NCBI RefSeq assembly: GCF_014635865.1
Contig: NZ_BMDQ01000001.1
Span: forward strand, 496,001 to 560,000
Source of the DNA: Winogradskyella haliclonae
GTDB lineage: Bacteria; Bacteroidota; Bacteroidia; Flavobacteriales; Flavobacteriaceae
Direction of reading: 5' to 3'
Length of the DNA stretch: 64,000 bases
Below are positions 31,877 through 49,690 of the stretch, one piece after another; positions within the stretch are counted from its first letter, which is position 1, and each line of letters opens with the position of its first letter. The notes beneath the pieces were generated by a model. The model was not told the origin of the DNA. It worked only from the letters and a program-made list of their open reading frames with translations, and did not search any database. The translations under genes were made by a program, and so were the position numbers.

Positions 31877-31889
31877 GTTTTTGTTTAAC

Positions 31890-31943
31890 AATATATAATA
31901 AAAAAACGCTTCGGGTTTCCGAAGCGTTTTTTTATTATATATT
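31890..31943 (+). terminator. Very long perfect hairpin terminator after ompA copy 1
   Basis: A 25-base-pair perfect stem with the core ACGCTTCGG / CCGAAGCGT and a GTTT loop, flanked by A and T runs. The GC core is the same as in the terminator after ompA copy 2. It could also work on the minus strand. Confidence 0.92.
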
Positions 31944-31982
31944 TATGCTTTATTGAAAATAAACAAATTAAGTTTAAAATTT

Positions 31983-33377
31983 ATGGGGGATATTTATAAA
32001 CTAATTTTGGCTATACTACTTTTTACAAGTATAAATACAACACAAGCGCAAGACCAAAATAACCCATGGGCTTTAAGCCTTGGTGTAAATGCTGTAGATT
32101 ACTATCCTGTTGGGCAACCTGATCCGCAGGGTGATTTATTTGATGAGTTTTTTAATGCTACTGATCACTGGAATATATTTCCATTTTTTTCGAGAATAGA
32201 GCTTTCAAGACATTGGACAGGTGGTCTTAGTTTTTCTGCAATTGGTTCATTTAATAAGATAAATAAATTTGGAACCAATGTTAATTATTCTACTGGAGAA
32301 GAAACAACAAATGAAGTTGATGATTTAACATACTATTCTATAGACGGTGCAATTAATTACAGCCTTATGGATTTGTTTAATTCAAATAGAATTGATCCAT
32401 ACATAAGTGGTGGTGGTGGTTATACCTGGTTGAATAAAATAGGTTCTGGTACCTTAAATGCATCCATAGGTATGAGGTATTGGTTTTCTGAAAAGTTTGC
32501 TTTTAATCTTCAAAGCACTTACAAACATGTTTTTGAAGTTTATGGATTTAGACACTTTCAACATTCTGCTTCTATAACTTACAAATACGGAGGTGTTTCA
32601 GACACAGATCGTGATGGTATATATGATGATAAAGATGCTTGTCCTGAAGAGCCAGGTTTGGCTATATACAATGGCTGTCCTGATTCTGATGGAGATGGTA
32701 TTGAAGATTCTGTAGATGAATGTCCTGATACAACAGGTTTAGCCGAGTTTAATGGTTGTCCAGACTCTGATGGCGATGGTATTGCAGATAAGAATGATAA
32801 ATGTCCAACTGTTGCTGGGCTTAAGTCTCTAATGGGCTGTCCAGATTCTGATGGCGATGGTTTAACCGATAAACAAGATAAATGCCCAACTACAGCTGGT
32901 CCTTCGGCTAATGCTGGTTGTCCGTGGCCCGACAGAGATAATGATGGGGTGTTTGATAAAGATGATAGATGTCCGAATGAAAAGGGTATCGTAGAAAATA
33001 ATGGTTGTCCAAAAATTACTGAGCAAGACAAAGAGCTTCTTAATAAGTACGCTAAGACCATACTGTTTTCTCCTGGTAGATCAGATATAAGAGAAGAATC
33101 AAAAGAAATTTTATCAGATATTATTGAAATACTTAAGAGTAATCCAGATGCTAAATTTACTATTGATGGTCATACAGATAGTATAGGGTCAGACTTACTA
33201 AATCTACGTTTATCGCAAGAAAGAGCCGATTCGGTAAAACAATATTTAGTTGCTAACGGTATTAAAGATTCTAGATTGACATCAAGAGGTTTTGGTGAAG
33301 AGAAGCCTATAGCTACAAACTTTTACAAAGACGGAAGGCGAAAAAATAGAAGAGTAGAAATTAATTTGTCTAATTAA
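31983..33377 (+). CDS. OmpA family protein with thrombospondin type 3 repeats (copy 2)
   Basis: It has 464 residues from the ATG at 31983; a TTG ten codons earlier is less likely because it would put polar residues before the signal peptide. The order is the same as in copy 1: signal peptide ending TQAQ, beta-barrel, Asp-rich thrombospondin type 3 repeats ([11 protein letters not shown] and similar), and an OmpA C-terminal domain ([20 protein letters not shown]). It is a tandem duplication of the preceding gene, diverged throughout. A -7-like TATATTTA overlaps the tail of the preceding terminator. Confidence 0.92.
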
Positions 33378-37034: not shown

Positions 37035-38345
37035 CTACAAACCTGCTCGTTTTGCTTGTATCGATGATTTATAAGGGTTCCACGGATCTTCAAAAGAGCG
37101 TTTGAAGAAAAACTCCTTATAATATGCTGCTGTTCTTACTATACGTAAATACGTGCCAGTATATAATGTCATTAAACCAACGTACTTCCATAGATAACGT
37201 TCTTCCTTACTTCGTTCAGAAAACAATGAAATACTAGACATTTGGACATAATTCATTACGAAATATAAGGTAAAGTTCATTGGAATAATAAATTGTAAGG
37301 AGCCACTATAATTAATAATTATATCTATGATATAAATCCACCATAATATATCTAAAACAACATTGTAGAATACATTTTCTGTTAATGAAAAAAAGGTCGC
37401 CCAATTAAAATTAGCTGTAGGGAAATATACATCTTTGTGCTTACGAACTCTAAACCGAATGATAGATTTATCCCAACGCAAACGTTGTTTAGTTAATACT
37501 TTAAATTTTGATGGCGCATTAGTTAAACAAATTGCACTAGGCTCGAAATATACTTTGTAGCCAGACTTCCTTATTTTTACTGTAATATCTCCATCTAATC
37601 CAGGTCCAATATCCCAACCTCCAATAGCGTCAATAGCCTCTTTTTTAAATGCGCCAAACGCCCCAGAAATTATTTTATAAATCCCTAAATAGGAGGTGAT
37701 AATGCGTCCTACGGAGACTGTTTTTAAATACTCAATAGCTTGTAACTTGGCACATAAACTATCCTTGTAATTTCTAACTTTTACATTTCCACCAACTGCT
37801 CCAATTTTAGAGTCCATAAAAAAAGGAATCAAGACATTTTCAATGGCGTCTCTATCAAAAGAGCAGTCGGCATCAAGATGAACAATGTATTTTCCTTTAC
37901 TAAAACGTAAAGCTAAATTTGCTGCGCTAGCTTTACCGCCTCGCATTTCATTACGGATGAATTTGTCAATTAAGCCTAATTGTTCTAAGTTTTTTCCTAT
38001 TGTTGGAGTCTCATCATCAGAACCATCATCAACAATGATAAGTTCAAAATTTGAAAAAGTTTGTTCGTCAAGAGACTTTGTGAGTTTAAACAGATGTTTC
38101 CCTTCATTTTTACCAGGAATAATTACCGATACAAATGGATTTTCATTAAATAGGGCTTGTCTTGCTTGAGCAAAACACTTATTTCTACGATTTTTTGTAA
38201 GTGAAAAAATAGCGAAAACAACGTAGTCAATTATAATATATCTTGTAAACTCAAATAGAACAAAATACCAAAATACACGAATGAACTTTGGTATCCCTAC
38301 AGCATTCCAATATAGTATGTATTCAGGTATTAATTGCTCTAACAT
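37035..38345 (-). CDS. Membrane-bound processive GT2 glycosyltransferase (polysaccharide synthase)
   Basis: It has 436 residues. An N-terminal membrane segment (about 20-48) is followed by a GT2 catalytic domain with VSVIIPGKNEG, VDDGSDDET (first Asp), HLDADCS (DxD), GLDGDIT (catalytic-base region) and KQRLRWDKS, the QxxRW motif of processive synthases. Several membrane segments follow (about 305-400). This is the layout of cellulose, alginate and poly-GlcNAc synthases that polymerise and translocate sugar chains across the inner membrane. It overlaps the upstream zinc-ribbon gene by seven bases. The sugar is not decided by sequence; the nearby dehydrogenase implies a uronic acid. Confidence 0.9.
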   Translation of the reverse strand: MLEQLIPEYILYWNAVGIPKFIRVFWYFVLFEFTRYIIIDYVVFAIFSLTKNRRNKCFAQARQALFNENPFVSVIIPGKNEGKHLFKLTKSLDEQTFSNFELIIVDDGSDDETPTIGKNLEQLGLIDKFIRNEMRGGKASAANLALRFSKGKYIVHLDADCSFDRDAIENVLIPFFMDSKIGAVGGNVKVRNYKDSLCAKLQAIEYLKTVSVGRIITSYLGIYKIISGAFGAFKKEAIDAIGGWDIGPGLDGDITVKIRKSGYKVYFEPSAICLTNAPSKFKVLTKQRLRWDKSIIRFRVRKHKDVYFPTANFNWATFFSLTENVFYNVVLDILWWIYIIDIIINYSGSLQFIIPMNFTLYFVMNYVQMSSISLFSERSKEERYLWKYVGLMTLYTGTYLRIVRTAAYYKEFFFKRSFEDPWNPYKSSIQAKRAGL

Positions 38346-39733
38346 TGCGATAAGTCTTTGTAATTAAACAATGTATCAATCTTAGTATTAGAATTAAGGG
38401 CAGTTTTAGTTACTGTTATAGGCGATTTCTCTTTTTTAATATTATCATTTAATAGTTTGTTGAGGTTATAATCTATATGTTCTATTCTCTCAGGATATGG
38501 GTTTTTAGTGTCCGGAATAAAAATGTGAAATAGATTATAGTCTTGAACGGTCATTATATCACTTGGTAAAAGGTAAGACCTAATGATTTCTGCAATTTCT
38601 GTTTTTAATGCATGCTGCATTGTTTCGTTCAAAGTTTTGAATTGCGCATTTTCATATTGTATAGTTACAAATTGACTCGTAATACCAGTTGTGAGTATAC
38701 GTTTAACTTCTTGTTTTAATAAAACTTTGAAAATAGAAATTGGAATTGTGCCATCGTCGATTTCTGATGTCTCTATTTGCTTTTTTAAAGGTGATTGCAT
38801 ATCAAATAACCACTGTTCTCCATGAGCGCTTATACTGTAATCCCCTATAGTTTTTTGTAGTAGTTCTGAAAGTGTATTGTCAGTATCACAATCAAAACAA
38901 GAGGCTTGCATTTCTGGATTTTGAAATTCATTTGCACAGCTATTGCATGAAAAAATTGAAGAAGGTTTGTCATAGTCTATTCCTATGTGCCGTAAATGTT
39001 TATCACATTTTGGGCAAGAAAGACCATCTTCAGTTTTAAAATCATTTTCGGGAGCAACATGAGCGCACACGAAATGATGAATCATATCTCGAGCTTGTAT
39101 ATCAGCACTTTTACAACTCGAACATATTTCTTTAAAATTTAAATAATTACTATCACAGCTTTTACATAAATGGATATGATCTCTAAAAGTTTTTGCGATA
39201 TAACCTTGTTTTTCTAAAGATTCTAATATTTTTAGAAGTGTTTTTTCTTCATTTTTGTAATATAAACTTAACAGAGGAAAATGATAGCCAATACGACTTA
39301 CACGAGACGTAAAAGGGGCAAAAATTTGATTACGACTATATATAAATCCTAATGTTTTATATTTTATTTCTTCATCAAAATTTGATGAGTCTTTAACCAT
39401 TATTTGTGCAAGTCGTTTATTTATAGCTATCGTTTTATGAGCTACATTTTCTTGATGTTGAGTATCTATAAAGCCGTCAGTATGACACACAAGTTCTCGG
39501 GGGAAATCCTGTATGTCATTAATAAAAAGAGGTATTAAACTCTCAATTCCTTTGGCTCTTCTAACCGCCTCTACAATAGCCTTAGCTTCATGCTCTATAG
39601 CGGTATCTATTATTAATCCATTATAATCTCTCCATTGTTGTTGTAGCTCAGTCACTCTACGTACTAAAACAAGACGCACACCTTGATATACAAGTTCTTT
39701 TGCAGAGTCGCTATTTCTTAATACGTTGAACAT
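38339..39733 (-). CDS. Multi-domain zinc-ribbon regulator: receiver-like, TackOD1-like, degenerate GGDEF-like
   Basis: It has 464 residues and no membrane segment. Residues 1-115 look like a receiver-like alpha/beta domain without a clear phospho-acceptor pocket. Residues 186-285 carry eleven cysteines, mostly CxxC pairs (190/193, 204/207, 240/243, 263/266, 279/282, plus 223), a treble zinc-ribbon region resembling the TackOD1 output domain. Residues 331-412 resemble a GGDEF fold in which TEIAEIIRSYLLPSD and FIPDT align, but the signature is DYNLF, so it should not make cyclic-di-GMP. It is translationally coupled to the GT2 synthase (7-base overlap) and is probably its cytoplasmic regulator. 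The domain names are inferred from sequence shape. Confidence 0.7.
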   Translation of the reverse strand: MFNVLRNSDSAKELVYQGVRLVLVRRVTELQQQWRDYNGLIIDTAIEHEAKAIVEAVRRAKGIESLIPLFINDIQDFPRELVCHTDGFIDTQHQENVAHKTIAINKRLAQIMVKDSSNFDEEIKYKTLGFIYSRNQIFAPFTSRVSRIGYHFPLLSLYYKNEEKTLLKILESLEKQGYIAKTFRDHIHLCKSCDSNYLNFKEICSSCKSADIQARDMIHHFVCAHVAPENDFKTEDGLSCPKCDKHLRHIGIDYDKPSSIFSCNSCANEFQNPEMQASCFDCDTDNTLSELLQKTIGDYSISAHGEQWLFDMQSPLKKQIETSEIDDGTIPISIFKVLLKQEVKRILTTGITSQFVTIQYENAQFKTLNETMQHALKTEIAEIIRSYLLPSDIMTVQDYNLFHIFIPDTKNPYPERIEHIDYNLNKLLNDNIKKEKSPITVTKTALNSNTKIDTLFNYKDLSQC

Positions 39734-39776
39734 TTTTTTAGATATTTAAAAAGGGTTGTATCTTATTTTTAAACGG

Positions 39777-41690
39777 TTATTGTATTTGATAATACTCACT
39801 TGTATCTATAGCTGATGAGGGATTAGCTTGTATTTGGAAGATAGCATCATTAAAATCCTTATCTCCATTAGGAACACTTATATCCTCAAAACAAATAATT
39901 GTTGAATTACAAGTAGAGTCATGAAATATGAGCGCCTGTTGTTGGTCATTATTATTTAATATTGCATTGGTATGTTGAGTATAAAACCCTTCTGTAATTT
40001 GATTATTACGCCATCCATCTGCGATAACAAAAAAACCTATTATAGTATCCGCTTCAAAAGTCCCTAATAGTTTTAAAGTATTACCCGGAATAAGCTCTCC
40101 TCCAGAATTTTGTGCAGAGGCATTGGGGAATACCACTACTTTAATTAAATCATCAACTGTTTGTGGAGGGTTATTAATGTTATACGTGTAATATCCCAAT
40201 GTATTTTTATATCCTGCTCCTTCACTAACAAAAGTTAATGTAACTTCAGCCGTCTCCTTTATATGAATATTCTTTGCTGGGTGAGCAAAATATTCGGGAT
40301 GAGATGTTATTGCATTTTGCTGCTCAGGTAAAATGTCATTAAACAAATTTGGAAGTAATGTGCTACAAATAACTTCATCTTCTTCCATAGTAATAGGTGT
40401 TCCAGAGTCGTTATAAGGACTTACCGTCATATAACTTGCTTTATCTTGCTTGTAAAGAATGTTAAATCCTCCTTGTCCTTTACATACAAACACCCAATCG
40501 TTTTGTGCAGTTATATAATTTGCAGATGCCGGTTGTTCTTCCATATCCCATACAAAAAAAGGTTGCACCTCTGCATAATTGGCAGCATGGTCTGCAATAG
40601 CAATACCATCAGCGCCGTTTGCAATATACATATAGTCATCATCTAAAGTGATTGCGTTGGTATTACCTTCTAACAACATAGTACCTTTTGAGTGATTCAT
40701 TTCTACTCCAGAATTAACATTGTAAGCTTTAAAACCTTTTTCAGCCATTGCAACAAATACACGGTCCGAATTATAAGGATCAAACACTAATGTGTTTTTT
40801 CCTCGATAAGCTTCTTCTACATTGGTATGAACAATATTTCCCACTGAATAAGAATTAGATGACACAAAACTGTTAACTGTACCAGTTTTAATAGTTGCAA
40901 CATCTCCCGTGATTAGGCTTGCATATTTAGCATTATCACTTGTTCCATTTACACCTACATATTTGCAATCACTATAAGCATCAACATACACAATCTCTAA
41001 AGTGTTTTTATCAATTGTAAACTGCCCACCATGTGTCTTACCAGCACTTACTAATACATAATTATTAGTTATTGCGATACCATTTGCTGATGCCGAAATA
41101 CCAGTGTTTAAGCTATTAGAAAGGTTGATTCTTTCAAAACTTTGTGTGCCAGCATCAATTTTATAAACTGTAGCTCCGTGGTTTTTATGAGATCCTGCAG
41201 CCCATATTGTACCATTGCTCTCAGCAGTGATAGCATTGATGTCAGCATTAAGAAAATCAATTTGTTGTAGTAAAATCGGATTTGCTGGGTCTGTGATATC
41301 TAAAATCTCTATACTACCCAAGTGTGTGTTACCTTGTTTATGGTAACTTACATATGCCTTGTTGTTTTTTATAGTACAATGTGTTGCACTAAGCAGCTCT
41401 CCATTTATAATAGGTGAGTTTACTCTTGCCACCCATGTCCAAAAATATGGCTGTTGATTTGTTACTTCTGCATTGGCATTATTTAGTCTTCCACTTACAT
41501 AGTCTAATGGCACTTTAGCAAGAATGCTTCTGTTAATGAGTTGTAATCTAGAATTATTTACACCTTCGCGAAATAAAACATCAATTGCAGCTTCTTCATT
41601 TTCAATTAGATTAGTATCATCATCTGGTTTTGAGCAGCTTACTATGGTAAACAGAGTCAAAAACGTTAAGTAGTATTTTTTTAAGTTCAT
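39777..41690 (-). CDS. DUF4114 domain lipoprotein with beta-propeller-like N-terminal part
   Basis: It has 637 residues. The lipoprotein signal ends at Cys19 (TIVSC). The middle (about residues 85-420) contains repeats such as GSIEILDITDPANPILLQQ and AITLDDDYMYIANGADGIAI, typical of LVIVD-type beta-propellers. The C-terminal 150 residues match DUF4114, with the pattern GFFVIADGWRNN and ICFEDISVPNGDKDFNDAIF, an Asp-rich probable calcium site. It sits between the sugar dehydrogenase (10-base gap) and the zinc-ribbon regulator (43-base gap), so it is an envelope component of the polysaccharide operon, perhaps a surface anchor for polymer. Confidence 0.85.
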   Translation of the reverse strand: MNLKKYYLTFLTLFTIVSCSKPDDDTNLIENEEAAIDVLFREGVNNSRLQLINRSILAKVPLDYVSGRLNNANAEVTNQQPYFWTWVARVNSPIINGELLSATHCTIKNNKAYVSYHKQGNTHLGSIEILDITDPANPILLQQIDFLNADINAITAESNGTIWAAGSHKNHGATVYKIDAGTQSFERINLSNSLNTGISASANGIAITNNYVLVSAGKTHGGQFTIDKNTLEIVYVDAYSDCKYVGVNGTSDNAKYASLITGDVATIKTGTVNSFVSSNSYSVGNIVHTNVEEAYRGKNTLVFDPYNSDRVFVAMAEKGFKAYNVNSGVEMNHSKGTMLLEGNTNAITLDDDYMYIANGADGIAIADHAANYAEVQPFFVWDMEEQPASANYITAQNDWVFVCKGQGGFNILYKQDKASYMTVSPYNDSGTPITMEEDEVICSTLLPNLFNDILPEQQNAITSHPEYFAHPAKNIHIKETAEVTLTFVSEGAGYKNTLGYYTYNINNPPQTVDDLIKVVVFPNASAQNSGGELIPGNTLKLLGTFEADTIIGFFVIADGWRNNQITEGFYTQHTNAILNNNDQQQALIFHDSTCNSTIICFEDISVPNGDKDFNDAIFQIQANPSSAIDTSEYYQIQ

Positions 41691-41700
41691 AATATGATTT

Positions 41701-43068
41701 TTAAAGTGTTATGTATTTATGATTTTTTACTAGGTGTTTAAATGTCCCACGGATATCATATACAAATCCATTTATTTTTAAATGCTCATTTAGATTTTCA
41801 AGATTTTGGTATACTGAATGATTTACAGCCATAATAACAGCATTGAATTTAGTATTGATTTTAGAAATTGGAGTTAGCTTAAAACCATATTCATGCTGAA
41901 CTTCTTGAGCATTTGCATAAGGGTCTTCCACGGTGACTTTATAGCCTTTTTTTATAAGTGCTTTTACAATATCAGCGACTTTAGAATTTCGGATATCGTT
42001 TACATCTTCTTTAAATGTTATCCCTTTTACAAGAATGTGTTTGCCATTTGATCCAAAAGAAAAGCGACAATGCTTAGTTATTTGGTTTACAATGTGTGTA
42101 ATCATACTCTCATTTGTAGAACGAACCTGTTCTAATAAAGCTGGCTTAAAGTTGAATTGGCGTGCACGGTCAATTAAATAATACGGGTCTACACCGATAC
42201 AATGGCCTCCAACTAAACCAGGGAAATAATTTTGAAAATTCCATTTTGTGCCAGCACTCTCAAGTACATCTTTAATAGGCACATCTAATCGGTTAAAAAT
42301 CTGCGCAAGCTCATTCATTAAACCAATATTTACATCTCGCTGAATGTTTTCAACTACTTTTGAAGCTTCTGCGACTTTTAAGCTTGAGGCTTTATGGACT
42401 CCTGCTGTAACGACAGTGTTATATACATTTGCTATTAACTCTAAAGCATCTTTTGTGCTGCCAGAAACCACTTTTGTGATTTGTGTAAATGTATGTGCTT
42501 TGTCTCCTGGATTAATTCGTTCTGGAGAATAACCGACTGTGAAATCCTTATTGAATTTTAAGCGAGAAATCCGTTCTAAAATAGGCACGCATACTTCTTC
42601 TGTACATCCTGGATATACAGTTGATTCAAACACTACACAATCTCCCTTTTTTAAATGCTTTGCAACAGTTGCCGTTGCAGATTTTAATGGGTTTAAATTA
42701 GGTTTTTTATGACTGTCTATTGGCGTTGGCACAGCTACGATATAAAATTTTGCTTTTGCCAGTGTGTTCTCTTCAAATGAAAATGAAATGTCTTTATTTT
42801 CAAAAGCACTTGAGTCTAGTTCTTCACAAGGGTCTTTGTGTTGTAATAATTGTAATACTTTTTCAGTATTAACATCAAAGCCTTGCACTCTGAATTTACT
42901 TGCCATATGTACTGCTAAAGGTAATCCTACATAACCTAGTCCAACCACTGCAATTGAGACTTCTTTATTTAGTAGTTGTTCAAATAAAGGTGTTTTTTTA
43001 TAGGCTACTTTTAATTCTTGTACGTCTTGTAAAGGAAATTGAGTTTTTAATGCTTCTGCTGTTCTCAT
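41701..43068 (-). CDS. Nucleotide-sugar dehydrogenase (UDP-sugar 6-dehydrogenase family)
   Basis: It has 455 residues. It oxidises C6 of a nucleotide sugar to the uronic acid with two NAD+. The Rossmann motif is VVGLGYVGLPLAVHMA at residues 41-56. Typical blocks follow: VPTPID, FESTVYPGCTEE, GYSPERINPGD at 179-189, and the catalytic Cys290 in GLVGGHCIGVDPYYL. It looks closest to the WbpO/TviB/VipA-type group acting on UDP-N-acetylhexosamines, but UDP-glucose or GDP-mannose substrates are not excluded. It is the first gene of its unit, 107 bases below the shared operator, and should feed the GT2 synthase. Confidence 0.9.
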   Translation of the reverse strand: MRTAEALKTQFPLQDVQELKVAYKKTPLFEQLLNKEVSIAVVGLGYVGLPLAVHMASKFRVQGFDVNTEKVLQLLQHKDPCEELDSSAFENKDISFSFEENTLAKAKFYIVAVPTPIDSHKKPNLNPLKSATATVAKHLKKGDCVVFESTVYPGCTEEVCVPILERISRLKFNKDFTVGYSPERINPGDKAHTFTQITKVVSGSTKDALELIANVYNTVVTAGVHKASSLKVAEASKVVENIQRDVNIGLMNELAQIFNRLDVPIKDVLESAGTKWNFQNYFPGLVGGHCIGVDPYYLIDRARQFNFKPALLEQVRSTNESMITHIVNQITKHCRFSFGSNGKHILVKGITFKEDVNDIRNSKVADIVKALIKKGYKVTVEDPYANAQEVQHEYGFKLTPISKINTKFNAVIMAVNHSVYQNLENLNEHLKINGFVYDIRGTFKHLVKNHKYITL

Positions 43069-43117
43069 AATTGTATTGTTTAAGATTTATATTAAAGTTT
43101 GGGGTTGTTATCTGATG

Positions 43118-43125
43118 CTAAATTA
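43118..43125 (-). promoter_or_regulatory. -7-like box (TAATTTAG) for the polysaccharide operon
   Basis: On the minus strand seven of eight positions match TAnnTTTG. It starts exactly 49 bases after the shared operator, the same distance as in the unit at 45778-45785. The leader would be about 45 bases. Confidence 0.55.
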
Positions 43126-43174
43126 GCTTAGCAACTCTCTAGTTTTTATGTTTTTAGCTAGTGTGTATCATCTG

Positions 43175-43215
43175 TGTAGATGAGTGGTAGTTCTGAAACG
43201 GTGAATGGTTTTTAG
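43175..43215 (-). promoter_or_regulatory. Shared operator, copy A (upstream of the sugar dehydrogenase operon)
   Basis: On the minus strand this reads CTAAAAACC, ATTCACC, seven variable bases, then AACTACCACTCATCTACA. It matches copy B at 31 of 41 positions without gaps, and the core spacing (TTCACC, ten bases, TACCACTCATCTACA) recurs in copy C. The likely binding protein is the LytTR regulator of the same cluster. Confidence 0.7.
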
Positions 43216-43228
43216 CGTATTAAACAAA

Positions 43229-44254
43229 TTAAAGTCTGCTTATTTCCACTTTTACATTAAGCTTATGATAACTGGCCCATTGCGACTTTTGTATATCATT
43301 TAGTGGTATAATTTCTGCTAGAATATTTCGCTCAGTTGGCTCATATGTTTTTTGGAATTCGTCTGGGGCTTCATATGTGGCTATATATACTTTGTTTATA
43401 ATGCCTTTAGATATTGAATTGTCAGGAAATAACACATCAATAGTTTCGCCTTGTTTTATATGTTCTAAAGCTTTTAAAGGAAAATAGGCTTTGATGAAAA
43501 CATCATCTGTATTATGTATAGTCATCACGTTTTCTGTCTTGTAACAAGATTCATTTTCGCTTTTTAGAATTTGACCAATCACACCATTTATGGGAGAACT
43601 ATACGTATTATCATGTGTGCTATTACCATTTGATAACATTGATTTTCCATCTAATGGATTTATGAATTGCTTTTGCTTATCAAGTAGATATAGTTCATTT
43701 TTAAGAAGTTTAACCTCAATCTCTTTTCGTTGTACGTCGAGTTGTATTTCATCAATTTTTTCTTTCGTATACACATCAAGCATTACAAGTTTAATTAATT
43801 GACTTTCTACAGATTTTAAATACTCTAATTGACTAAGTAATGCATTTAAGTGAATGTATTTTTGCTGTATCTCAAAAGCCAATTTTTGAGCATTTTTAGT
43901 AGCATCCATTTGAGATTTTTGAGCCTGTAGTATCAATGATGCGTCATTGTCAAATGCGCTTTGTTTATAAGAGAATAATTGCTGATTATATTTAACTGTA
44001 TCACCTTCTTGGATATTAATGTGTTGAACTCTTATATCTTGAGTGAAATTCACGTCAACTTTATCCATTAATATTTGACCATTTCCTTCTATCATCGCTA
44101 ATTTATTATACGAATAGCGTATTAAAAAAGTGATAAGAATGGCTATCAGACCAAAGTATATTAAACGGTCAATATTGACTTTTTTCTTCTTAATTTTTGG
44201 TTCTTTTAAGGTGCGGATTACTGCTACCTTTCTCTGAAATGAAAATGCTCTCAT
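43229..44254 (-). CDS. HlyD-like periplasmic membrane-fusion protein
   Basis: It has 341 residues. The N terminus is basic and cytoplasmic (residues 1-30), followed by one membrane segment (about 31-49) and a periplasmic part. The lipoyl/biotinyl-like half-motif is INIQEGDTVKYNQQLF (about residues 75-90), a long coiled coil spans about 95-200, and the second half-motif (SPINGVIGQILKSENE) follows. This is the adaptor class that joins inner- and outer-membrane export parts; in alginate-like systems the equivalent is Alg44. Its start lies 65 bases inside the TolC-like gene, so translation is coupled. Confidence 0.87.
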   Translation of the reverse strand: MRAFSFQRKVAVIRTLKEPKIKKKKVNIDRLIYFGLIAILITFLIRYSYNKLAMIEGNGQILMDKVDVNFTQDIRVQHINIQEGDTVKYNQQLFSYKQSAFDNDASLILQAQKSQMDATKNAQKLAFEIQQKYIHLNALLSQLEYLKSVESQLIKLVMLDVYTKEKIDEIQLDVQRKEIEVKLLKNELYLLDKQKQFINPLDGKSMLSNGNSTHDNTYSSPINGVIGQILKSENESCYKTENVMTIHNTDDVFIKAYFPLKALEHIKQGETIDVLFPDNSISKGIINKVYIATYEAPDEFQKTYEPTERNILAEIIPLNDIQKSQWASYHKLNVKVEISRL

Positions 44255-45773
44255 TATTTGTTGTTTTAATAGTTTTTAATACTTCGCGCATCCATTGGTG
44301 TAACATGGTTTCTTTGGTGTATTTTGAAACTACACGTATTTTAAAGCCAGAAGATTTCCACTTTTGTTGAAGTACTATATTTTTATCTAAGACACTTACA
44401 GATGTTATATTATGAGCTTTTAAAAAAGCCTTCTGAAAAGTGTGAGGAAAACTGGATTTATCATTTAAAATAATTACATCTTTACTTGGTCTTTTCTTGA
44501 ATATAAACGGCTGAGTTTTCAGGTCCCCATAAAGCTCATATAGATGTGATAGTGATGTATACAGTTGCTTTTTAAGAATCAGTATGTTTTCTAAAATATC
44601 ATATTGCTCCTCCTGTAATGCTAGTAATTGAATTCCTGCTTCTGGATTATTGAGTTCTTTTTTTAATACCTGTAAAACGCGTTTCCGCTCTTGCACAATT
44701 TCCCAGTTTTTGTGCTGTACATGTAAGTCTCTTATTTTTTCTCTATAACTCGCAAAATATGTTACAACTTGGTTATGCTGTCCTTTTTCATGTGTGTTAT
44801 CAATTGTATTGGTAAGTCTTATTTTTGCTTTTGTAATAGATTCATTTTCATTGAAACGAAGAGGAACTCTTAGACGTAAACCTACTGAAGCAAAATTACG
44901 TGTATTAATATCGCTCTGGGTCCAATTATAGTTAGCATAGGCACTTAAAGAAATGTTATCAAGCCAGCTAGCTTTGTTATATACTAAAGCTGCTTGTAAA
45001 GAATCTCTATTTGATGCCATTGCAATTTGAAACTGATAAGGCTCTTTTTTAATAATTAAAATTGGTAAAATAGACGGTATATATGTACTAGAAACACTAT
45101 CTTTTATGAGCTTGTTATATTGTTTTATATGCTCTCCTTCTTTCCGAGCAATAGTGATTTTTTCACCAACCTCAATGAGTTGTTCGCGCTTAATAAGCTT
45201 TTGATAATGTAAAACAGATAGTATATCGAAATAACGGTTTAAAAACGCTTCTTTATGTTTAAATAAAGTCAAGAGTTCTTGGTTAATTGAATAGGTGTAA
45301 TCTATCCGAAATTGTCTACGCCAAGCAATGCGCTTTTCTTGAGCCTTTTTTTGCTGTAGTAATGAAATTTCAATATTCTTTTGTTGTGCTTTATGTTTAT
45401 TATTTAAAAACCCTTCCTTTAGTATATTCCATTCTAACTCAGTTTTTAAACGACTTCGTGTTATACGATTGCTCTCCTCATCTAAGTCATCATTAAAATT
45501 GTATTGGGCGTTCGCTTTAAAAACAAGACCAAGATCTTTCCTGTAAGCATCTTTTTCAAGTTGTTTTATAGCAATCTGATAATCTGTAATTGTACTATCT
45601 TCTGGTTGCTTATTATTAAACTTAAAAACATTTTGAGGAACAGGAAGCGATAAATAAGTTTCATTAATTCTATATAGCTCTTCAGAAGAAATAAGTAAAC
45701 TATCAAGGGATTGCGCTTTCACAAAAAGTGAAGTCAAAACGCTTATAAGCAGATATATAATTATCTTTTGCAT
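44190..45773 (-). CDS. TolC-like outer-membrane factor with C-terminal extension
   Basis: It has 527 residues. A signal peptide (1-20, ending KAQ) is followed by a long alpha-helical region with strong coiled-coil character and two beta segments (WLDNISLSAYANYNW, ASVGLRLRVPLRF), as expected for an outer-membrane efflux-type channel. Residues about 440-527 form an extra alpha/beta-looking domain without recognised family. The 3' end overlaps the HlyD-like gene by 65 bases. It is first in its unit; its -7 box TATATTTG ends four bases before the ATG, so the mRNA may be leaderless. Sequence similarity to TolC is weak and rests on architecture. Confidence 0.75.
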   Translation of the reverse strand: MQKIIIYLLISVLTSLFVKAQSLDSLLISSEELYRINETYLSLPVPQNVFKFNNKQPEDSTITDYQIAIKQLEKDAYRKDLGLVFKANAQYNFNDDLDEESNRITRSRLKTELEWNILKEGFLNNKHKAQQKNIEISLLQQKKAQEKRIAWRRQFRIDYTYSINQELLTLFKHKEAFLNRYFDILSVLHYQKLIKREQLIEVGEKITIARKEGEHIKQYNKLIKDSVSSTYIPSILPILIIKKEPYQFQIAMASNRDSLQAALVYNKASWLDNISLSAYANYNWTQSDINTRNFASVGLRLRVPLRFNENESITKAKIRLTNTIDNTHEKGQHNQVVTYFASYREKIRDLHVQHKNWEIVQERKRVLQVLKKELNNPEAGIQLLALQEEQYDILENILILKKQLYTSLSHLYELYGDLKTQPFIFKKRPSKDVIILNDKSSFPHTFQKAFLKAHNITSVSVLDKNIVLQQKWKSSGFKIRVVSKYTKETMLHQWMREVLKTIKTTNNESIFISEKGSSNPHLKRTKN

Positions 45774-45777
45774 ATAG

Positions 45778-45785
45778 CAAATATA
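45778..45785 (-). promoter_or_regulatory. -7 box (TATATTTG) of the TolC-like/HlyD-like unit
   Basis: On the minus strand this is an exact TAnnTTTG match, 49 bases after the shared operator copy B and only four bases before the ATG. Transcription should begin at or near the start codon. Confidence 0.65.
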
Positions 45786-45834
45786 TCTGCGTATAGCTTC
45801 GGGACTAGCTAAATATCGTTAGTGAGAATACTAC

Positions 45835-45875
45835 TGTAGACGAGTAGTAGTTGAGTGTAGGTAAACGGTTTTTAG
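45835..45875 (-). promoter_or_regulatory. Shared operator, copy B (upstream of the TolC-like gene)
   Basis: On the minus strand: CTAAAAACC, GTTTACC, seven variable bases, AACTACTACTCGTCTACA. It has the same internal spacing as copies A and C and the same 49-base distance to the -7 box as copy A. It lies 62 bases before the ATG. Confidence 0.7.
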
Positions 45876-45941
45876 AGCTTACTAATATTATATATTTTAT
45901 TAAAAATAAAACCCAATAAATATCTCACTATCAATGATTTG

Positions 45942-46634
45942 TTATAGTAAATTTAAGCGCCTCATGAGTTCCGAGCGATTGGAACGACTTACTGGAACAA
46001 TATCTTGTTTTATAAGCACGCTATTATCTTCAATATCAATAATTTTTTTTGTGTTTATAACATATGAGCGATGCACTTTTAAAAATAGACTGTCTGGTAA
46101 TTTATCTTCAATCTTTTTTAATGTAGCATGTACAATAAGGTTTTTATCTTCAGTAACTATTTTAATATAATCTCCTTTTGCTTGTATAAAATATATATCA
46201 GGAATATTAATCTTAACTAATCTACGGTCTATATTTACATATAAATCATTACTCGACGAGGTCTCTACAGTAGTAGTGTTTAAGGTCTTGTTTTTCGCTT
46301 TTTTAATGGCCTTATCAAAACGCTCTTGTGTAATTGGCTTAACTAAATAATCGATAATACAATCATATTCAAAAGCATCAAGGGCAAAATTTTTATCACT
46401 AGTCGTAATAATTATTTTTGGTGGATCTTTTAATGTTTGAATAAAGTCAAACCCCGTAAAAGCTGGCATGTGTATATCTAAAAAGATAAGTTCAATTTCT
46501 TCTTGATTAAGATATTTAATAGCTTCAATTGCACTTGGGAAAGCCTCAATAATTTCGACATCATTATTCTGTGAGCCTAAATGCTCTATTATACTACGTG
46601 CTGTGGCTTCATCATCTATAATTATACTTTTCAT
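45942..46634 (-). CDS. LytTR-family response regulator
   Basis: It has 230 residues. The receiver domain has the acidic pair near DDEA (7-10) and phospho-acceptor Asp53 in FLDIHMP. The C-terminal LytTR DNA-binding domain (about residues 128-230) shows DIYFIQAKGDYIKIV and FLKVHRSYVIN, the family signatures. LytTR regulators bind paired direct half-sites upstream of promoters, which fits the operators at 43175, 45835 and 49561. It is the last gene of the sensory operon, overlapping the Hpt gene by four bases. Confidence 0.95.
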   Translation of the reverse strand: MKSIIIDDEATARSIIEHLGSQNNDVEIIEAFPSAIEAIKYLNQEEIELIFLDIHMPAFTGFDFIQTLKDPPKIIITTSDKNFALDAFEYDCIIDYLVKPITQERFDKAIKKAKNKTLNTTTVETSSSNDLYVNIDRRLVKINIPDIYFIQAKGDYIKIVTEDKNLIVHATLKKIEDKLPDSLFLKVHRSYVINTKKIIDIEDNSVLIKQDIVPVSRSNRSELMRRLNLL

Positions 46635-46951
46635 AAGCTGTCAAGATAGTTTTCAATATGCATTAATATTTGATAGAATGGGGGATATAAACTGTCATTA
46701 TTATTTTTAAGTTGATTTTCAAAATCACGTGCGACTTCATAACTTTTTTCAAGACCCAAAATATTAATTTTGTGTTTTAGTTTATGAACCATTTCTGCAC
46801 ATTGCCGAAAATCTTGTTGTTTGTAAAATACTATAAATTGTTCTTTTTCCAGAGGAAATTCTGTTTTAATTATAGTTAACAACTTAGCCACATAATCTTT
46901 ATCATCACCAGCTATTTCTTTAATATAATTAAGTGTAGGGCTCTCTTGCAT
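46631..46951 (-). CDS. Stand-alone histidine phosphotransfer (Hpt) protein
   Basis: It has 106 residues and is nearly all helical. The phospho-accepting His56 is in MVHKLKHKINILGL, which fits the Hpt pattern HxLKxxxxxxG. It passes phosphate between response regulators in multi-step relays. Its start lies 3 bases after the kinase stop, and it overlaps the LytTR regulator gene by four bases. Confidence 0.9.
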   Translation of the reverse strand: MQESPTLNYIKEIAGDDKDYVAKLLTIIKTEFPLEKEQFIVFYKQQDFRQCAEMVHKLKHKINILGLEKSYEVARDFENQLKNNNDSLYPPFYQILMHIENYLDSL

Positions 46952-46954
46952 TTA

Positions 46955-48526
46955 TTATTTCTTTAAAGTGAAATGAAAGGTAGTGCCTTTTCCGACTTTT
47001 GAAGTTACCCAAATGTCGCCATCATAGAATTCTACGATTTTCTTTACTATAGACAAGCCAATACCAGTGCTAGTATCTTTATCTCCTAAGGATTCAAAAA
47101 TCTCAAAAATCTTTTTTGTATATACCTCAGCTATGCCTTTACCATTATCTGAAATAGAAAACTTCCAATGTGTTTTATTATCTTCAAAATCTACATAGAC
47201 TAAACCTTTCTCTTTGTCTATGGCATTAATAGCATTATTTAATAAATTTTGAAATAGCTGTTGTAGACGAGATGTATCTCCCTTAATATTTGGTAATGGA
47301 TTTTTTATGTTAACTAATACATTTTTAGGTATATGAAGGATATCAATGACACTTGTCACTAATTCTTGTAAATTAACATTTTCATTGCCCTTGTCTGTTT
47401 TATCGATACTAGAATACTTTAATATACCATCAATTAAGCTATCCATTTTATCTACCTTATTGAGTAGCATTCTAAAGGTGTCTTTTGCTTTTTCATCAAA
47501 AGCACTTGCATAATCCTCTTGTATCCAGTTTATCAATGTATCCATCCCTCTCAGAGGTGATTTTAAATCATGAGAAACAATATGTGCAAAGTCATTTAGA
47601 TCTCTGTTTTTTCGCTCTAAATCAAGTATAAGTTGTTTACGTTCTTTTTCTAATTTTAAGTCTTCAGAAATATCCTCTACTAGTGCTACTTGATATTTTA
47701 TAGCCCCTTTTTTATCTCTAACAGCGGCAACATTAGTTCTAGCCCAGATCGTAGTCTTATCATTTTTTACGTATCTTTTGTTAACAGAAAAGTTATCTAT
47801 CTCCCCTTTGTTTAATGCCTCCATTAAACCTCTTGAAACAGAATAATCTTCAGCTAATGAGATATCTTGAACTTCTTTTTCTTGTAATTCTTTTTTACTG
47901 TAAGAAAGCATCTCTTCAAAGGCCTTATTGGTTTGGATAATCTTACCATATTGTGTTAATACAATTCCTAAACTTGAGTTATTTACTATGGCTGTAAGCT
48001 GCTTTTGTTGCTCCTCTAATTTTAATGCATTTGCTAGTTGTTGCGTAATATCTCTAACAATACCTTGAGCACCTATGGGTTTTCCTTCTTCATTTTTAAT
48101 AATACTAGCATTAATATGAACACTACGCACCCCATTATTTTTGGTATTCACTCTAGCTTGATAGTCCGAGAATGCTCCATTTTTTACTAATTGAGAAAAC
48201 GATTGCATTGCATAAGCCATATCCTCTTTATAAATAAGTTTTACAACATTTATTTTTTCATTTTCTGGGTTATAACCAAAAAGTGTGGTAGCGGTATCAT
48301 TCATTTTTAGGACATTCCCTTTAATATCCATTAAAACATAGGCATCAACGAGATTATCAAAAACACCTTTTAACTCTGATGTAGTTTCATTAAGGTCATG
48401 TTTTAATTTTCTTGAGAGCGTATATAACTCTCTTGATTTTTCTTCGAGAATTTTTTCGGCTTGTTTTCGTGCTTCTCGTTCTCTAACAAGTGCTTTTTTG
48501 AGTATGTCTATCTCGTTTTTACTCAT
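46955..48526 (-). CDS. Cytoplasmic PAS-PAS sensor histidine kinase
   Basis: It has 523 residues and no membrane segment. An N-terminal coiled coil (1-50) is followed by two PAS domains (about 52-165 and 175-290), then the dimerisation/phospho-acceptor domain with His319 in FAHIVSHDLKSP, and an ATPase domain with NLLNNAINAI, ISDNGKGI and GIGLSIVKKIV. It overlaps the H-NOX gene by four bases, so it is probably the H-NOX-associated kinase whose activity depends on heme ligation. Confidence 0.95.
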   Translation of the reverse strand: MSKNEIDILKKALVREREARKQAEKILEEKSRELYTLSRKLKHDLNETTSELKGVFDNLVDAYVLMDIKGNVLKMNDTATTLFGYNPENEKINVVKLIYKEDMAYAMQSFSQLVKNGAFSDYQARVNTKNNGVRSVHINASIIKNEEGKPIGAQGIVRDITQQLANALKLEEQQKQLTAIVNNSSLGIVLTQYGKIIQTNKAFEEMLSYSKKELQEKEVQDISLAEDYSVSRGLMEALNKGEIDNFSVNKRYVKNDKTTIWARTNVAAVRDKKGAIKYQVALVEDISEDLKLEKERKQLILDLERKNRDLNDFAHIVSHDLKSPLRGMDTLINWIQEDYASAFDEKAKDTFRMLLNKVDKMDSLIDGILKYSSIDKTDKGNENVNLQELVTSVIDILHIPKNVLVNIKNPLPNIKGDTSRLQQLFQNLLNNAINAIDKEKGLVYVDFEDNKTHWKFSISDNGKGIAEVYTKKIFEIFESLGDKDTSTGIGLSIVKKIVEFYDGDIWVTSKVGKGTTFHFTLKK

Positions 48527-49065
48527 TCATTCTTTGTAATACTAAATTTTACTTCAGTACCATCATCTTTTATTTTCTCTACTAATATAGTTGCTTTACT
48601 GTCAAAAGACTCAAAAGTTTTGTGCATCAAGCCTAATCCAAAACTATACATTGCTCTACTAGAGCGGTAAATCATAATAAGTTTGTTGTTCGTTTTTTCT
48701 AATGTCTCAAAAGAAGGTAATTCTGCATCAGAATATATTTTACGAACTTCAATATGAATGTGATTTTCTATTGAAGATAGCATTTCAATGGGATCCTTAT
48801 AACTTTCAATTAATTGTGGGTAACTTTCAACTAATACACCAAAAAAATGCTCGGCATATACCTTTAGTAAATCATCTATACTAATACTGGTCTTCGCACT
48901 TAATGCTTTAAGCAAGCCTAACATTTCAGAAAAAGGGTAAGTCCCAACTGCCGTGTAACTCCCACCAGTAGAGAGCTCTGTTTGATCTATAATTTCTTGG
49001 ACTGTTGCTAATCCAAATTTATCTTCTACTAAATCTAAAAACTCTGTAAATACTATTCCTTTCAT
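48523..49065 (-). CDS. H-NOX heme nitric oxide/oxygen-binding protein
   Basis: It has 180 residues. The start MKGIVFTEFLDLVEDKFG is typical of H-NOX. The heme-ligating His is most likely His104 in NHIHIEVRKIY, followed by AELPSF, and the propionate-binding YxSxR motif is Tyr133-Ser135-Arg137. These positions are each offset by two from the Thermoanaerobacter H-NOX (His102, Tyr131-Ser133-Arg135). The distal residue matching its oxygen-binding Tyr140 is Phe142, so this protein is expected to bind NO and not hold O2. It is coupled to the kinase gene by a four-base overlap. Confidence 0.93.
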   Translation of the reverse strand: MKGIVFTEFLDLVEDKFGLATVQEIIDQTELSTGGSYTAVGTYPFSEMLGLLKALSAKTSISIDDLLKVYAEHFFGVLVESYPQLIESYKDPIEMLSSIENHIHIEVRKIYSDAELPSFETLEKTNNKLIMIYRSSRAMYSFGLGLMHKTFESFDSKATILVEKIKDDGTEVKFSITKNE

Positions 49066-49066
49066 T

Positions 49067-49471
49067 CTATACTAATTGATTAATTGACCAATACTCTATA
49101 ATTGTTTTTAATTGAGACGTGTATGCCTCATACTTTAGTGGCTTCATAACATAGCCTGCAATGCCTATACGATAGGCTTCTTTAATATCTTCTTTATTAT
49201 TTGATGTTGTAAGAACTACTACAGGAATATGATGAAAACCATCATCAGATTTAAGAATTTTTAAAAACTCCAATCCATTCATCTTAGGCATATTTAAGTC
49301 AAGAAGTATCAGGTCAGGAAAGTTTTTAGTTGTTTTTAGGTATTGCAATGCTGCTTCTCCATTGGTTTCATTATGCTGCTTGTGGTTTTTTGAAATGGTA
49401 CTAAGAATTCGTTCAAATTTTAATATTTCAATTTGATCGTCTTCAATTAACAATATATTAAGATTATTCAT
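49067..49471 (-). CDS. Single-domain response regulator (CheY-like)
   Basis: It has 134 residues and consists of a receiver only. The acidic pocket is Glu10-Asp11-Asp12 in LLIEDDQ, and the phospho-acceptor is Asp58 in LILLDLNMP. The Lys of the active site is in GYVMKPLKYE. No output domain is present, so it acts by protein contact or as a relay step. It is the first gene of the sensory operon, one base before the H-NOX gene, and lies below operator copy C. Confidence 0.94.
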   Translation of the reverse strand: MNNLNILLIEDDQIEILKFERILSTISKNHKQHNETNGEAALQYLKTTKNFPDLILLDLNMPKMNGLEFLKILKSDDGFHHIPVVVLTTSNNKEDIKEAYRIGIAGYVMKPLKYEAYTSQLKTIIEYWSINQLV

Positions 49472-49560
49472 ACGCTAGTCTCAACAAGTTACTATAAAAA
49501 CTTCAAGATGGTGTTTTTTAAATAAAATTTCTGTTGACTGTCGACGAAAGTATCTTTAAG

Positions 49561-49601
49561 TGTAGATGAATGGTATTTTACTATAGGTGAGTTGAAAAAA
49601 C
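49561..49601 (-). promoter_or_regulatory. Shared operator, copy C (upstream of the sensory operon)
   Basis: On the minus strand the core reads CTCACC, ten bases, TACCATTCATCTACA: 14 of 15 positions of the second block match copy A, with the same ten-base spacing. The distal CTAAAAACC block is not kept. At 49 bases downstream the -7 position reads CCATCTTG, a weak match. The distance to the ATG is 90 bases. Confidence 0.6.
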
Positions 49602-49616
49602 AGGTTTTGTTAATAG

Positions 49617-49690
49617 TGGAGAAGAGCGGACTCGAACCGCCGACCTCTTGACTGCCAGTCAAGCGCTCTAGCCAACTGAGCTACATCCCC
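49617..49690 (-). tRNA. tRNA-Ala (anticodon GGC)
   Basis: This is a 74-nt cloverleaf on the minus strand: acceptor GGGGATG with CTTCTCC, D arm GCTC/GAGC, anticodon stem CTTGA/TCAAG with loop CTGGCAG, T arm GGCGG-TTCGAGT-CCGCT, discriminator A. The third acceptor pair is G-T, the G3:U70 identity element of alanine tRNA. The terminal CCA is not encoded. One acceptor mismatch (T6-T67) is seen. Confidence 0.93.

Follow-up and report, generated by a model that had tools for sequence, protein, structure and literature searches.

A cluster of eleven genes in a 64,000-nt stretch of the Winogradskyella haliclonae genome (3.05 Mb, code G000; the stretch is hereafter called the window) places an H-NOX haem gas sensor and its phosphorelay beside genes for probable polysaccharide synthesis and export. 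We propose, with a probability of about 0.68, that this cluster encodes a nitric oxide (NO) phosphorelay controlling a synthase-dependent exopolysaccharide machine without cyclic di-GMP (c-di-GMP). The gene content, the catalytic and relay residues, the conserved linkage, the operators and the lack of any other GGDEF match in the genomes searched are read directly from the sequences, and the degenerate GGDEF fold of a TackOD1 protein from a predicted model. From these we infer NO as the ligand, the sign of the response, the polymer, the export route and the role of that protein.

Gene content of the cluster

Open reading frames (ORFs) and domain scans confirmed the three adjacent minus-strand units, and the order of their eleven genes, that had been described in an initial annotation of this DNA. 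They also bore out its single sensory operon, composed of a receiver, H-NOX, a PAS-PAS histidine kinase, a histidine phosphotransfer (Hpt) protein and a receiver-LytTR regulator. The second unit pairs a TolC-like protein with HlyD, and the third contains a dehydrogenase, a DUF4114 putative lipoprotein, the TackOD1 protein and a family-2 glycosyltransferase (GT2). The features, in window coordinates, are as follows:

37035..38345, minus strand: GT2, processive, PgaC/IcaA-like, with QxxRW (PgaC/IcaA score below that family's cut-off)
38339..39733, minus strand: TackOD1 protein (PF18551, E 1e-55)
39777..41690, minus strand: DUF4114 putative lipoprotein (domain scan; lipobox judged by eye)
41701..43068, minus strand: nucleotide-sugar (UDP-sugar) dehydrogenase (top NCBIfam match TviB, under the TviB cut-off)
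43179..43209, minus strand: predicted LytTR-type operator of the dehydrogenase unit, two half-sites with 21 bp period, 5' of the dehydrogenase
43229..44254, minus strand: HlyD/EmrA/MacA-type membrane-fusion protein (clear HlyD assignment)
44190..45773, minus strand: TolC-like outer-membrane protein (weak OEP similarity)
45839..45869, minus strand: predicted LytTR-type operator of the export unit, 5' of the TolC-like/HlyD unit
45942..46634, minus strand: response regulator with receiver and LytTR DNA-binding domains
46631..46951, minus strand: Hpt phosphotransfer protein (domain scan)
46955..48526, minus strand: PAS-PAS histidine kinase (domain scan)
48523..49065, minus strand: H-NOX haem gas sensor (PF07700, 131 bits)
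49067..49471, minus strand: stand-alone receiver (PF00072, 81.5 bits), a likely relay from kinase to Hpt
49543..49595, minus strand: predicted LytTR-type operator of the sensory operon (dimer match at 49565-49595 and a weaker third half-site at 49543-49552, seen by eye)

Comparisons were made with 249 sampled genomes of the family Flavobacteriaceae and with 46 loci returned by a TackOD1-alignment scan of 84,980 species genomes. For the family H-NOX comparison, 80 of 96 other places were fetched (16 were left out), giving 81 loci with the window.

The H-NOX sensory operon

A proximal haem His and a YxSxR motif define H-NOX proteins. The HNOB domain of the window protein scores 131 bits against a curated cut-off of 25.5, and among the 81 members, window included, the proximal His is present in 81/81 and the Tyr, Ser and Arg of YxSxR in 81/81, 81/81 and 80/81. 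The closest solved relative of the window protein is 6BDD of Kordia algicida, which bears the name Ka H-NOX in the accessible part of PMC7356049, and both proteins have Ala at hinge position 71. It is very unlikely, in our estimate, that this sensor reports oxygen or redox state in place of NO. Some H-NOX proteins do bind O2 or respond to oxidation, according to PMC7108781, and the window protein has a Tyr at position 140, as in 43/81 members. However, the distal Tyr140 of the O2-sensing protein described in sections of PMC7356049 would correspond, judged by spacing from YxSxR, to a Phe of the window protein two residues later, and the pocket of Ka H-NOX, as the nearest solved relative, prefers NO in a simulation given in the same sections.

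The kinase, receiver, Hpt and regulator genes occur together with their phospho-residues intact. Across the compared proteins, window included, the phospho-acceptors are conserved in 88/88 receivers (Asp) and 126/126 kinases (His), counts that take in some non-operon genes or second kinases, as well as in 74/75 Hpt proteins (His) and 77/77 LytTR regulators (Asp). H-NOX was found in 93 of the 249 family genomes, and the 81 loci hold H-NOX (81), kinase (80), receiver (79), LytTR regulator (74) and Hpt (73) genes; on gene content, the family has the H-NOX relay as a general module. In two loci, L142 (= L046) and L137, the H-NOX set is divergent and its genes run H-NOX, kinase, receiver, Hpt, LytTR. 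The 226-residue Hpt protein of L046 has additional N-terminal sequence ahead of its Hpt domain (residues 137-211), and its L137 counterpart, with 222 residues, is about as long.

Linkage of the relay and the polymer genes

TackOD1 was detected above cut-off in 6 of the 249 family genomes, a count that excludes three matches below cut-off (G118, G165, G204), and all six genes lie within 10 kb of H-NOX, at about 2 to 9 kb. Conserved co-occurrence of the relay with a processive GT2, as raised by the initial annotation, is supported. In the species scan, an H-NOX operon accompanies 12 of the 46 TackOD1 loci, namely 11 of 13 loci of Flavobacteriaceae type and one from Saprospiraceae (L137); five of these 12 come from genomes also in the family sample. 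The two Flavobacteriaceae-type loci without H-NOX are L126, the second copy that a Tenacibaculum genome carries, and L123, which a contig end truncates. H-NOX is carried somewhere in 23 of the 44 TackOD1 genomes searched, so that having H-NOX alone does not mean linkage. TackOD1 and H-NOX are both absent from G157, a congener of the window genome.

Gene order differs between linked loci: the polymer genes lie downstream of the relay in the window, G090, G218 and G237, partly upstream in G083, and upstream of the divergent H-NOX set in G135 and L137. Five sensory proteins were concatenated for a tree of 81 rows, which omits L046, L056, L113, L137 and rows with fewer than four of the five proteins. 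This tree requires five changes of linked state, each of them forced by a branch with good support, and it rejects a single clade of the 11 canonical linked operons (approximately unbiased test, p-AU 1e-7), a result that recombination among the five genes could inflate.

That the relay regulates itself and unlinked genes, and that the polymer genes adjoin it by chance or co-transfer, is scarcely credible on these data. Most H-NOX genomes have no polymer genes, and the polymer set occurs without H-NOX in 34/46 loci, some of them short contigs, as such a scenario would have it; against it stand the 6/6 linkage in the family sample, the varying gene order, the non-monophyly of the linked sensory operons in the five-protein tree, and operators placed 5' of the first genes of the units and not of inner genes. 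As judged from gene positions and trees, the linkage of relay and polymer genes is not due to chance.

Predicted LytTR operators on the three units

LytTR regulators bind direct-repeat operators whose elements lie about two helical turns apart. A half-site, ACCATTCRYCKACA, was derived from the three promoters of the window and from those of linked relatives, and the operator was defined as its direct repeat with a 21-bp period; the reversed pattern served as control for the half-site. With at most one mismatch, the half-site was found 113 times (control 4) in 75 H-NOX loci that lack TackOD1 and had no part in its derivation, and 20 times (control 0) in 13 linked loci, as opposed to 0 times (control 2) in 31 TackOD1 loci without H-NOX (a set that leaves out L123, L126 and L167). 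Allowing two mismatches, the counts in these three sets were 196 vs 52, 42 vs 9 and 17 vs 19. Adjacent half-sites were exactly 21 bp apart in 50 of 53 counts, with some pairs counted from both ends. Based on their period, these repeats are predicted to be LytTR-type operators.

The position of the half-sites follows the units. In operons without TackOD1, the 350 bp preceding the first receiver (REC) gene contain a half-site in 52/73 cases (reversed pattern 0; ten-shuffle mean 0.0). In 12 linked relatives (up to two mismatches, 200 bp), it precedes REC in 9/12, TolC in 8/12 and the dehydrogenase in 9/12; for each of the seven inner genes (H-NOX, kinase, Hpt, LytTR, HlyD, TackOD1 and GT2) the count is 0/12. 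The shared operator postulated by the initial annotation is thus supported, with repeats at 43179-43209, 45839-45869 and 49565-49595. The first two are the sole exact dimer matches in the 3.05-Mb genome and the third has two mismatches; the exact matches arise by construction, as the pattern was taken from these sites, and the statistical support comes from the independent loci. Genome-wide, the dimer pattern gave 19 matches (control 6), of which 12 are tandem ATCACTT repeats, and outside the cluster only these 12 and four two-mismatch matches were found. A half-site search for a wider regulon across the same 3.05 Mb, with at most one mismatch, returned 7 matches vs 5 for the control, two of the seven within the cluster. 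In other genera the half-site also lies 5' of genes for proteins with a type IX secretion system (T9SS) tail (16 loci), family-4 glycosyltransferases (GT4; 7), STAS (4) and Wzx-like proteins (3).

TAnnTTTR is a promoter element of Bacteroidota. In a set of 71 dimers that lie 5' of REC or of three other gene families, the operator is followed by a TAnnTTTR box at 52-53 bp in 16 counts and at 31 bp in 4, with all other distances counted once at most. The two peaks differ by about two helical turns, and these distances would suit an activator bound upstream. The window TolC promoter has its box 53 bp past the operator. A TAnnTTTR box lies just 4 bp 5' of the TolC start codon (window 45773; likewise L122, L123, L125, L132 and L134), so the transcript may be leaderless, or the true start may be located more downstream.

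A conserved gene set for probable synthesis and export

The TolC-like, HlyD, TackOD1 and GT2 genes occur together in 42/46 loci; the other four are short contigs in three cases (L140, L165, L166) and an archaeal protein in the fourth (L167). In nine loci listed gene by gene the order is compact, with two exceptions: in L137 the TolC-HlyD pair lies apart on the opposite strand, and in L126 a dehydrogenase intervenes. Apart from the archaeal protein, the 46 loci belong to Bacteroidota (many of them Crocinitomicaceae), one Desulfuromonadales and one deltaproteobacterial genome. The dehydrogenase is present in 14/46 loci, the same Flavobacteriaceae-type loci and L137. By its gene distribution, the export part is a separate conserved module, mostly without H-NOX.

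GT2 is probably a polymer synthase: its QRLRW motif is invariant in six aligned sequences, and its profile matches PgaC and hyaluronan or chondroitin synthases. The dehydrogenase would supply a uronic-type sugar nucleotide, from which one might guess at an acidic amino sugar in the polymer, and the DUF4114 putative lipoprotein is a candidate surface or matrix protein. Of the export pair named in the initial annotation, HlyD was upheld; the TolC-like member matches OEP in the window with an E of 0.012, below cut-off, and OEP reaches E <= 0.1 in 8 of 30 aligned TolC-like proteins (best 1.8e-6).

It is distinctly unlikely, in our view, that GT2 makes a glycolipid or a modified surface glycan in place of an exported homopolymer, with TolC-HlyD exporting something else. 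The weak TolC-like similarity would fit such a role, as would the lack of any deacetylase or hydrolase domain among ten cluster proteins scanned; the co-occurrence of the four genes in 42/46 loci and the synthases matched by the GT2 profile speak for an exported polymer. Scans of the eleven cluster proteins showed neither a PilZ nor an alginate-specific domain, and the earlier likening to alginate-type systems was not sustained, the HlyD and TolC-like proteins being closer to the XcsAB-TolC cellulose route of cyanobacteria than to alginate export. That route shares a GT2 synthase, an HlyD-like adaptor and a TolC channel with the window, and is itself a proposed, unproven one in the accessible part of PMC12430437; in contrast to it, the window genes sit together with a TackOD1-GGDEF protein and without PilZ.

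The TackOD1 protein and c-di-GMP

The TackOD1 protein combines a receiver-like domain, a TackOD1 zinc-ribbon domain (residues 120-301) and, as modelled, a degenerate GGDEF fold (about 316-464) that lacks the catalytic motif. What the initial annotation had called a zinc-ribbon regulator does contain the zinc-ribbon, and the description is here corrected by the addition of the other two domains. A structure model built from 42 sequences reached a mean predicted local distance difference test score (pLDDT) of 87 and replaced a six-sequence model (pLDDT 54). The underlying alignment, A3, contains the window and 41 of the 46 loci, leaving out L140, L152 (a near-twin of L146), L165, L166 and the archaeal L167. 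Residues 316-464 of the model match GGDEF domains with Z about 14 over some 135-140 residues and a root-mean-square deviation (rmsd) near 3; the VIA comparison gave a good test of residues 312-464 alone. The assignment of residues 9 to about 115 as receiver-like is softer, with alignments to PleD and WspR covering about 240 residues at an rmsd of 7 to 12. Consistent with the fold, a sequence profile of the protein finds diguanylate cyclases (3ign, 1.5e-7), and Pfam GGDEF matches 17 of the 42 members at E <= 0.1, the window protein not among them.

The GG[DE]EF motif is found in 0/42 members. At the I-site position, 22 of the 27 unlinked members from outside Flavobacteriaceae have RxxD, as against 0 of the 15 that are of Flavobacteriaceae type or linked to H-NOX, a split that is confounded with phylogeny; the window protein has LPSD there. 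Twenty of the 22 RxxD-keeping members are from Bacteroidota without other GGDEF matches, so that RxxD does not necessarily imply binding of c-di-GMP. All 7 genomes searched of the window's family, the window genome included, were without a GGDEF match, compared with matches in 8/14 control genomes. Among the 44 TackOD1 genomes, full GGDEF proteins occur only in the Desulfuromonadales (14 matches) and deltaproteobacterial (41 matches) genomes, and none besides the TackOD1 gene was found in 42/42 TackOD1-bearing Bacteroidota genomes, many of them draft metagenome-assembled genomes. Eight others of the 44 genomes gave one weak GGDEF match each (one above cut-off), which position and frame length place on the TackOD1 gene in every case.

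PelD and BcsE carry degenerate GGDEF domains that gate a polymer synthase directly. The TackOD1 fold could likewise still bind a nucleotide, c-di-GMP or another, and gate GT2, leaving to the relay only the level of expression. We regard this as unlikely. The GGDEF fold itself, the RxxD of most non-Flavobacteriaceae, unlinked members and the presence of PelD (structure 4dmz) among the Foldseek matches of the model all point towards such gating; it is opposed by the loss of RxxD in the Flavobacteriaceae-type and H-NOX-linked members and by the lack of GGDEF matches besides TackOD1 in the Bacteroidota genomes searched. The window shares with PelD and BcsE a degenerate GGDEF domain adjoining a polymer synthase, and differs from them in its lost I-site Arg, its extra TackOD1 zinc-ribbon domain and a genome without GGDEF matches. 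We consider the TackOD1 protein a probable partner or regulator of the synthase. A full-text literature search on TackOD1, with subscription journals largely outside it, found a single paper, in which the function is described as obscure.

A proposed NO-responsive circuit

Under our proposal of a c-di-GMP-independent NO relay, H-NOX would bind NO and restrain the neighbouring histidine kinase, as in studied H-NOX/kinase pairs. Phosphate would pass from the kinase His to the Asp of the stand-alone receiver, then to the Hpt His and finally to the Asp of the LytTR regulator. Once phosphorylated, the regulator would bind the direct repeats upstream of the three units and activate its own operon, TolC-HlyD and the dehydrogenase-DUF4114-TackOD1-GT2 unit. 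GT2 would then polymerise sugar across the inner membrane, the chain would be carried outward by HlyD and the TolC-like protein, and the TackOD1 protein, as a relic of a receiver-GGDEF architecture, would sit on the synthase as a cytoplasmic partner. NO would be expected to lower LytTR phosphorylation and hence polymer synthesis, because NO-bound H-NOX inhibits the kinase HahK in Vibrio fischeri and NO-bound NosP inhibits VpsS in Vibrio cholerae (accessible parts of PMC6769237 and PMC8738867). The same wiring with the opposite sign, in which NO-bound H-NOX raises LytTR phosphorylation, or unphosphorylated LytTR activates, and NO elicits a protective coat, is somewhat unlikely given those two inhibited kinases. 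In its favour, the sequence fixes no sign, the stand-alone receiver could also drain phosphate, and biofilm effects differ among the H-NOX systems tabulated in the available part of PMC8738867.

Several observations weigh against the proposed circuit. TackOD1 is absent above cut-off from 87 of the 93 H-NOX genomes, so the relay has other main jobs. The H-NOX-only tree, with seven changes of linked state of which two are forced, does not reject one clade of the same 11 linked operons (p-AU 0.31). DUF4114 is preceded by a half-site (up to two mismatches) in only 2/8 loci, a TAnnTTTR box at one of the peak distances is missing from most of the 71 dimers, and no such box was matched for the window dehydrogenase and REC promoters. 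The divergent type (L142, L137) has no good operator matches at most promoters, and L126 has polymer genes without a good operator or an H-NOX in the locus. On the similarity scores, the TolC-like assignment is weak, the weakest label of the cluster. The initial annotation had named as contrary evidence the separation of relay and polymer genes in close relatives without shared operators; such separation was found outside Flavobacteriaceae and in L126, and not at the canonical linked loci. Its claim of an H-NOX relay wired to a polysaccharide machine is supported in part, with H-NOX as common in the family as reported above and the export set usually lacking H-NOX in its locus outside Flavobacteriaceae. 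The link to this polysaccharide machine is a minority case among H-NOX relays.

The genes downstream of the family H-NOX operons vary between loci. In 29 loci among L049-L115, a large secreted protein follows the relay; five members scanned have a T9SS sorting tail (5/5), DUF4114 (3/5) and DUF6923 (3/5), and 12 of the 29 resemble the window DUF4114 protein, making DUF4114 common to those loci and the window cluster. Other loci have Wzx-like and GT4 genes, or sets of dehydrogenase, epimerase and sugar transferase genes. A different polysaccharide set follows the relay in L047, L048, L063, L092, L099, L102 and L109, with a sugar transferase family in all seven loci and, in some, also dehydrogenase, epimerase, receiver or STAS genes. 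The relay may thus control different surface glycans in different genera. Gene-cluster names in these other loci rest on one to five scanned representatives, and one further Wzx-like member gave no Pfam match.

FIST is the domain type of the NO sensor NosP. A FIST protein is encoded in the operon of 42 of the 81 family H-NOX loci, usually then with a second histidine kinase (L047, L050, L092 and 39 others), and 3/3 members scanned have FIST N and C domains; no FIST protein was found in the window, in five other linked family loci or in any of the 46 TackOD1 loci. The FIST-bearing operons are possibly two-sensor NO relays with one Hpt and one LytTR output.

Flanking features

Two neighbouring, similar OmpA-like ORFs at window 30485-33377 are apparent duplicates, and their repeats resemble calcium-binding type-3 repeats by eye. 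A tRNA-Ala (GGC) at window 49616-49690 adjoins the sensory operon. Its reading as the mark of an insertion site was dropped: the G+C content of the cluster is 0.317 vs 0.338 for the window, and among 12 related loci scanned, eight have no tRNA and four have other tRNAs, none of them tRNA-Ala.

Relationship to known systems

An H-NOX phosphorelay to exopolysaccharide is an already known kind of system. In V. fischeri, H-NOX/HahK acts on syp polysaccharide, likely through the Hpt of SypF, and resembles the window in its H-NOX and partner kinase, Hpt step and exopolysaccharide output; there, however, the Hpt domain belongs to a different sensor protein and the syp regulon is the target (accessible part of PMC8738867), whereas the window encodes its whole relay, stand-alone receiver and LytTR regulator included, in a single operon, with a different polymer machine adjoining and in a genome without GGDEF matches. 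Vibrio harveyi HqsK/LuxU/LuxO and V. cholerae NosP/VpsS share the series of NO sensor, kinase, receiver, Hpt and regulator, but their hybrid kinases feed a shared quorum-sensing Hpt and small RNAs (passages of PMC6769237), unlike the dedicated linear relay to LytTR operators predicted here. The studied H-NOX pathways in the available parts of PMC6769237 and PMC8738867 come from proteobacteria and have as their outputs c-di-GMP, quorum sensing or syp genes, and the LytTR passage seen in PMC6769237 concerns nitrosylation of AgrA. A full-text search on H-NOX with LytTR, Bacteroidota, Flavobacter and Kordia algicida, and on HlyD/TolC synthases, returned no description of this system, most subscription journals being outside the search; the export gene set is apparently undescribed.

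More tentatively, and with slightly less than even confidence, we suggest that the TolC-like protein, HlyD, the receiver-like-TackOD1-degenerate GGDEF protein and GT2 form an undescribed class of exopolysaccharide secretion in Bacteroidota and some deltaproteobacteria. This class might have started with a c-di-GMP-linked regulator, whose fold was kept as a structural synthase partner where c-di-GMP is absent, and in Flavobacteriaceae its control might have passed more than once to a portable NO phosphorelay with LytTR operators.

Taken together, these analyses suggest that some marine Bacteroidota may use nitric oxide to control their slime, in place of c-di-GMP as the usual messenger. The likely targets of the relay can be read from the DNA, in genomes where no diguanylate cyclase was found (seven checked), and NO control of surface polymers in Flavobacteriaceae thereby becomes directly testable. 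The cluster also provides TackOD1 with its first bacterial context and points to a gene set for polymer export that is apparently undescribed.

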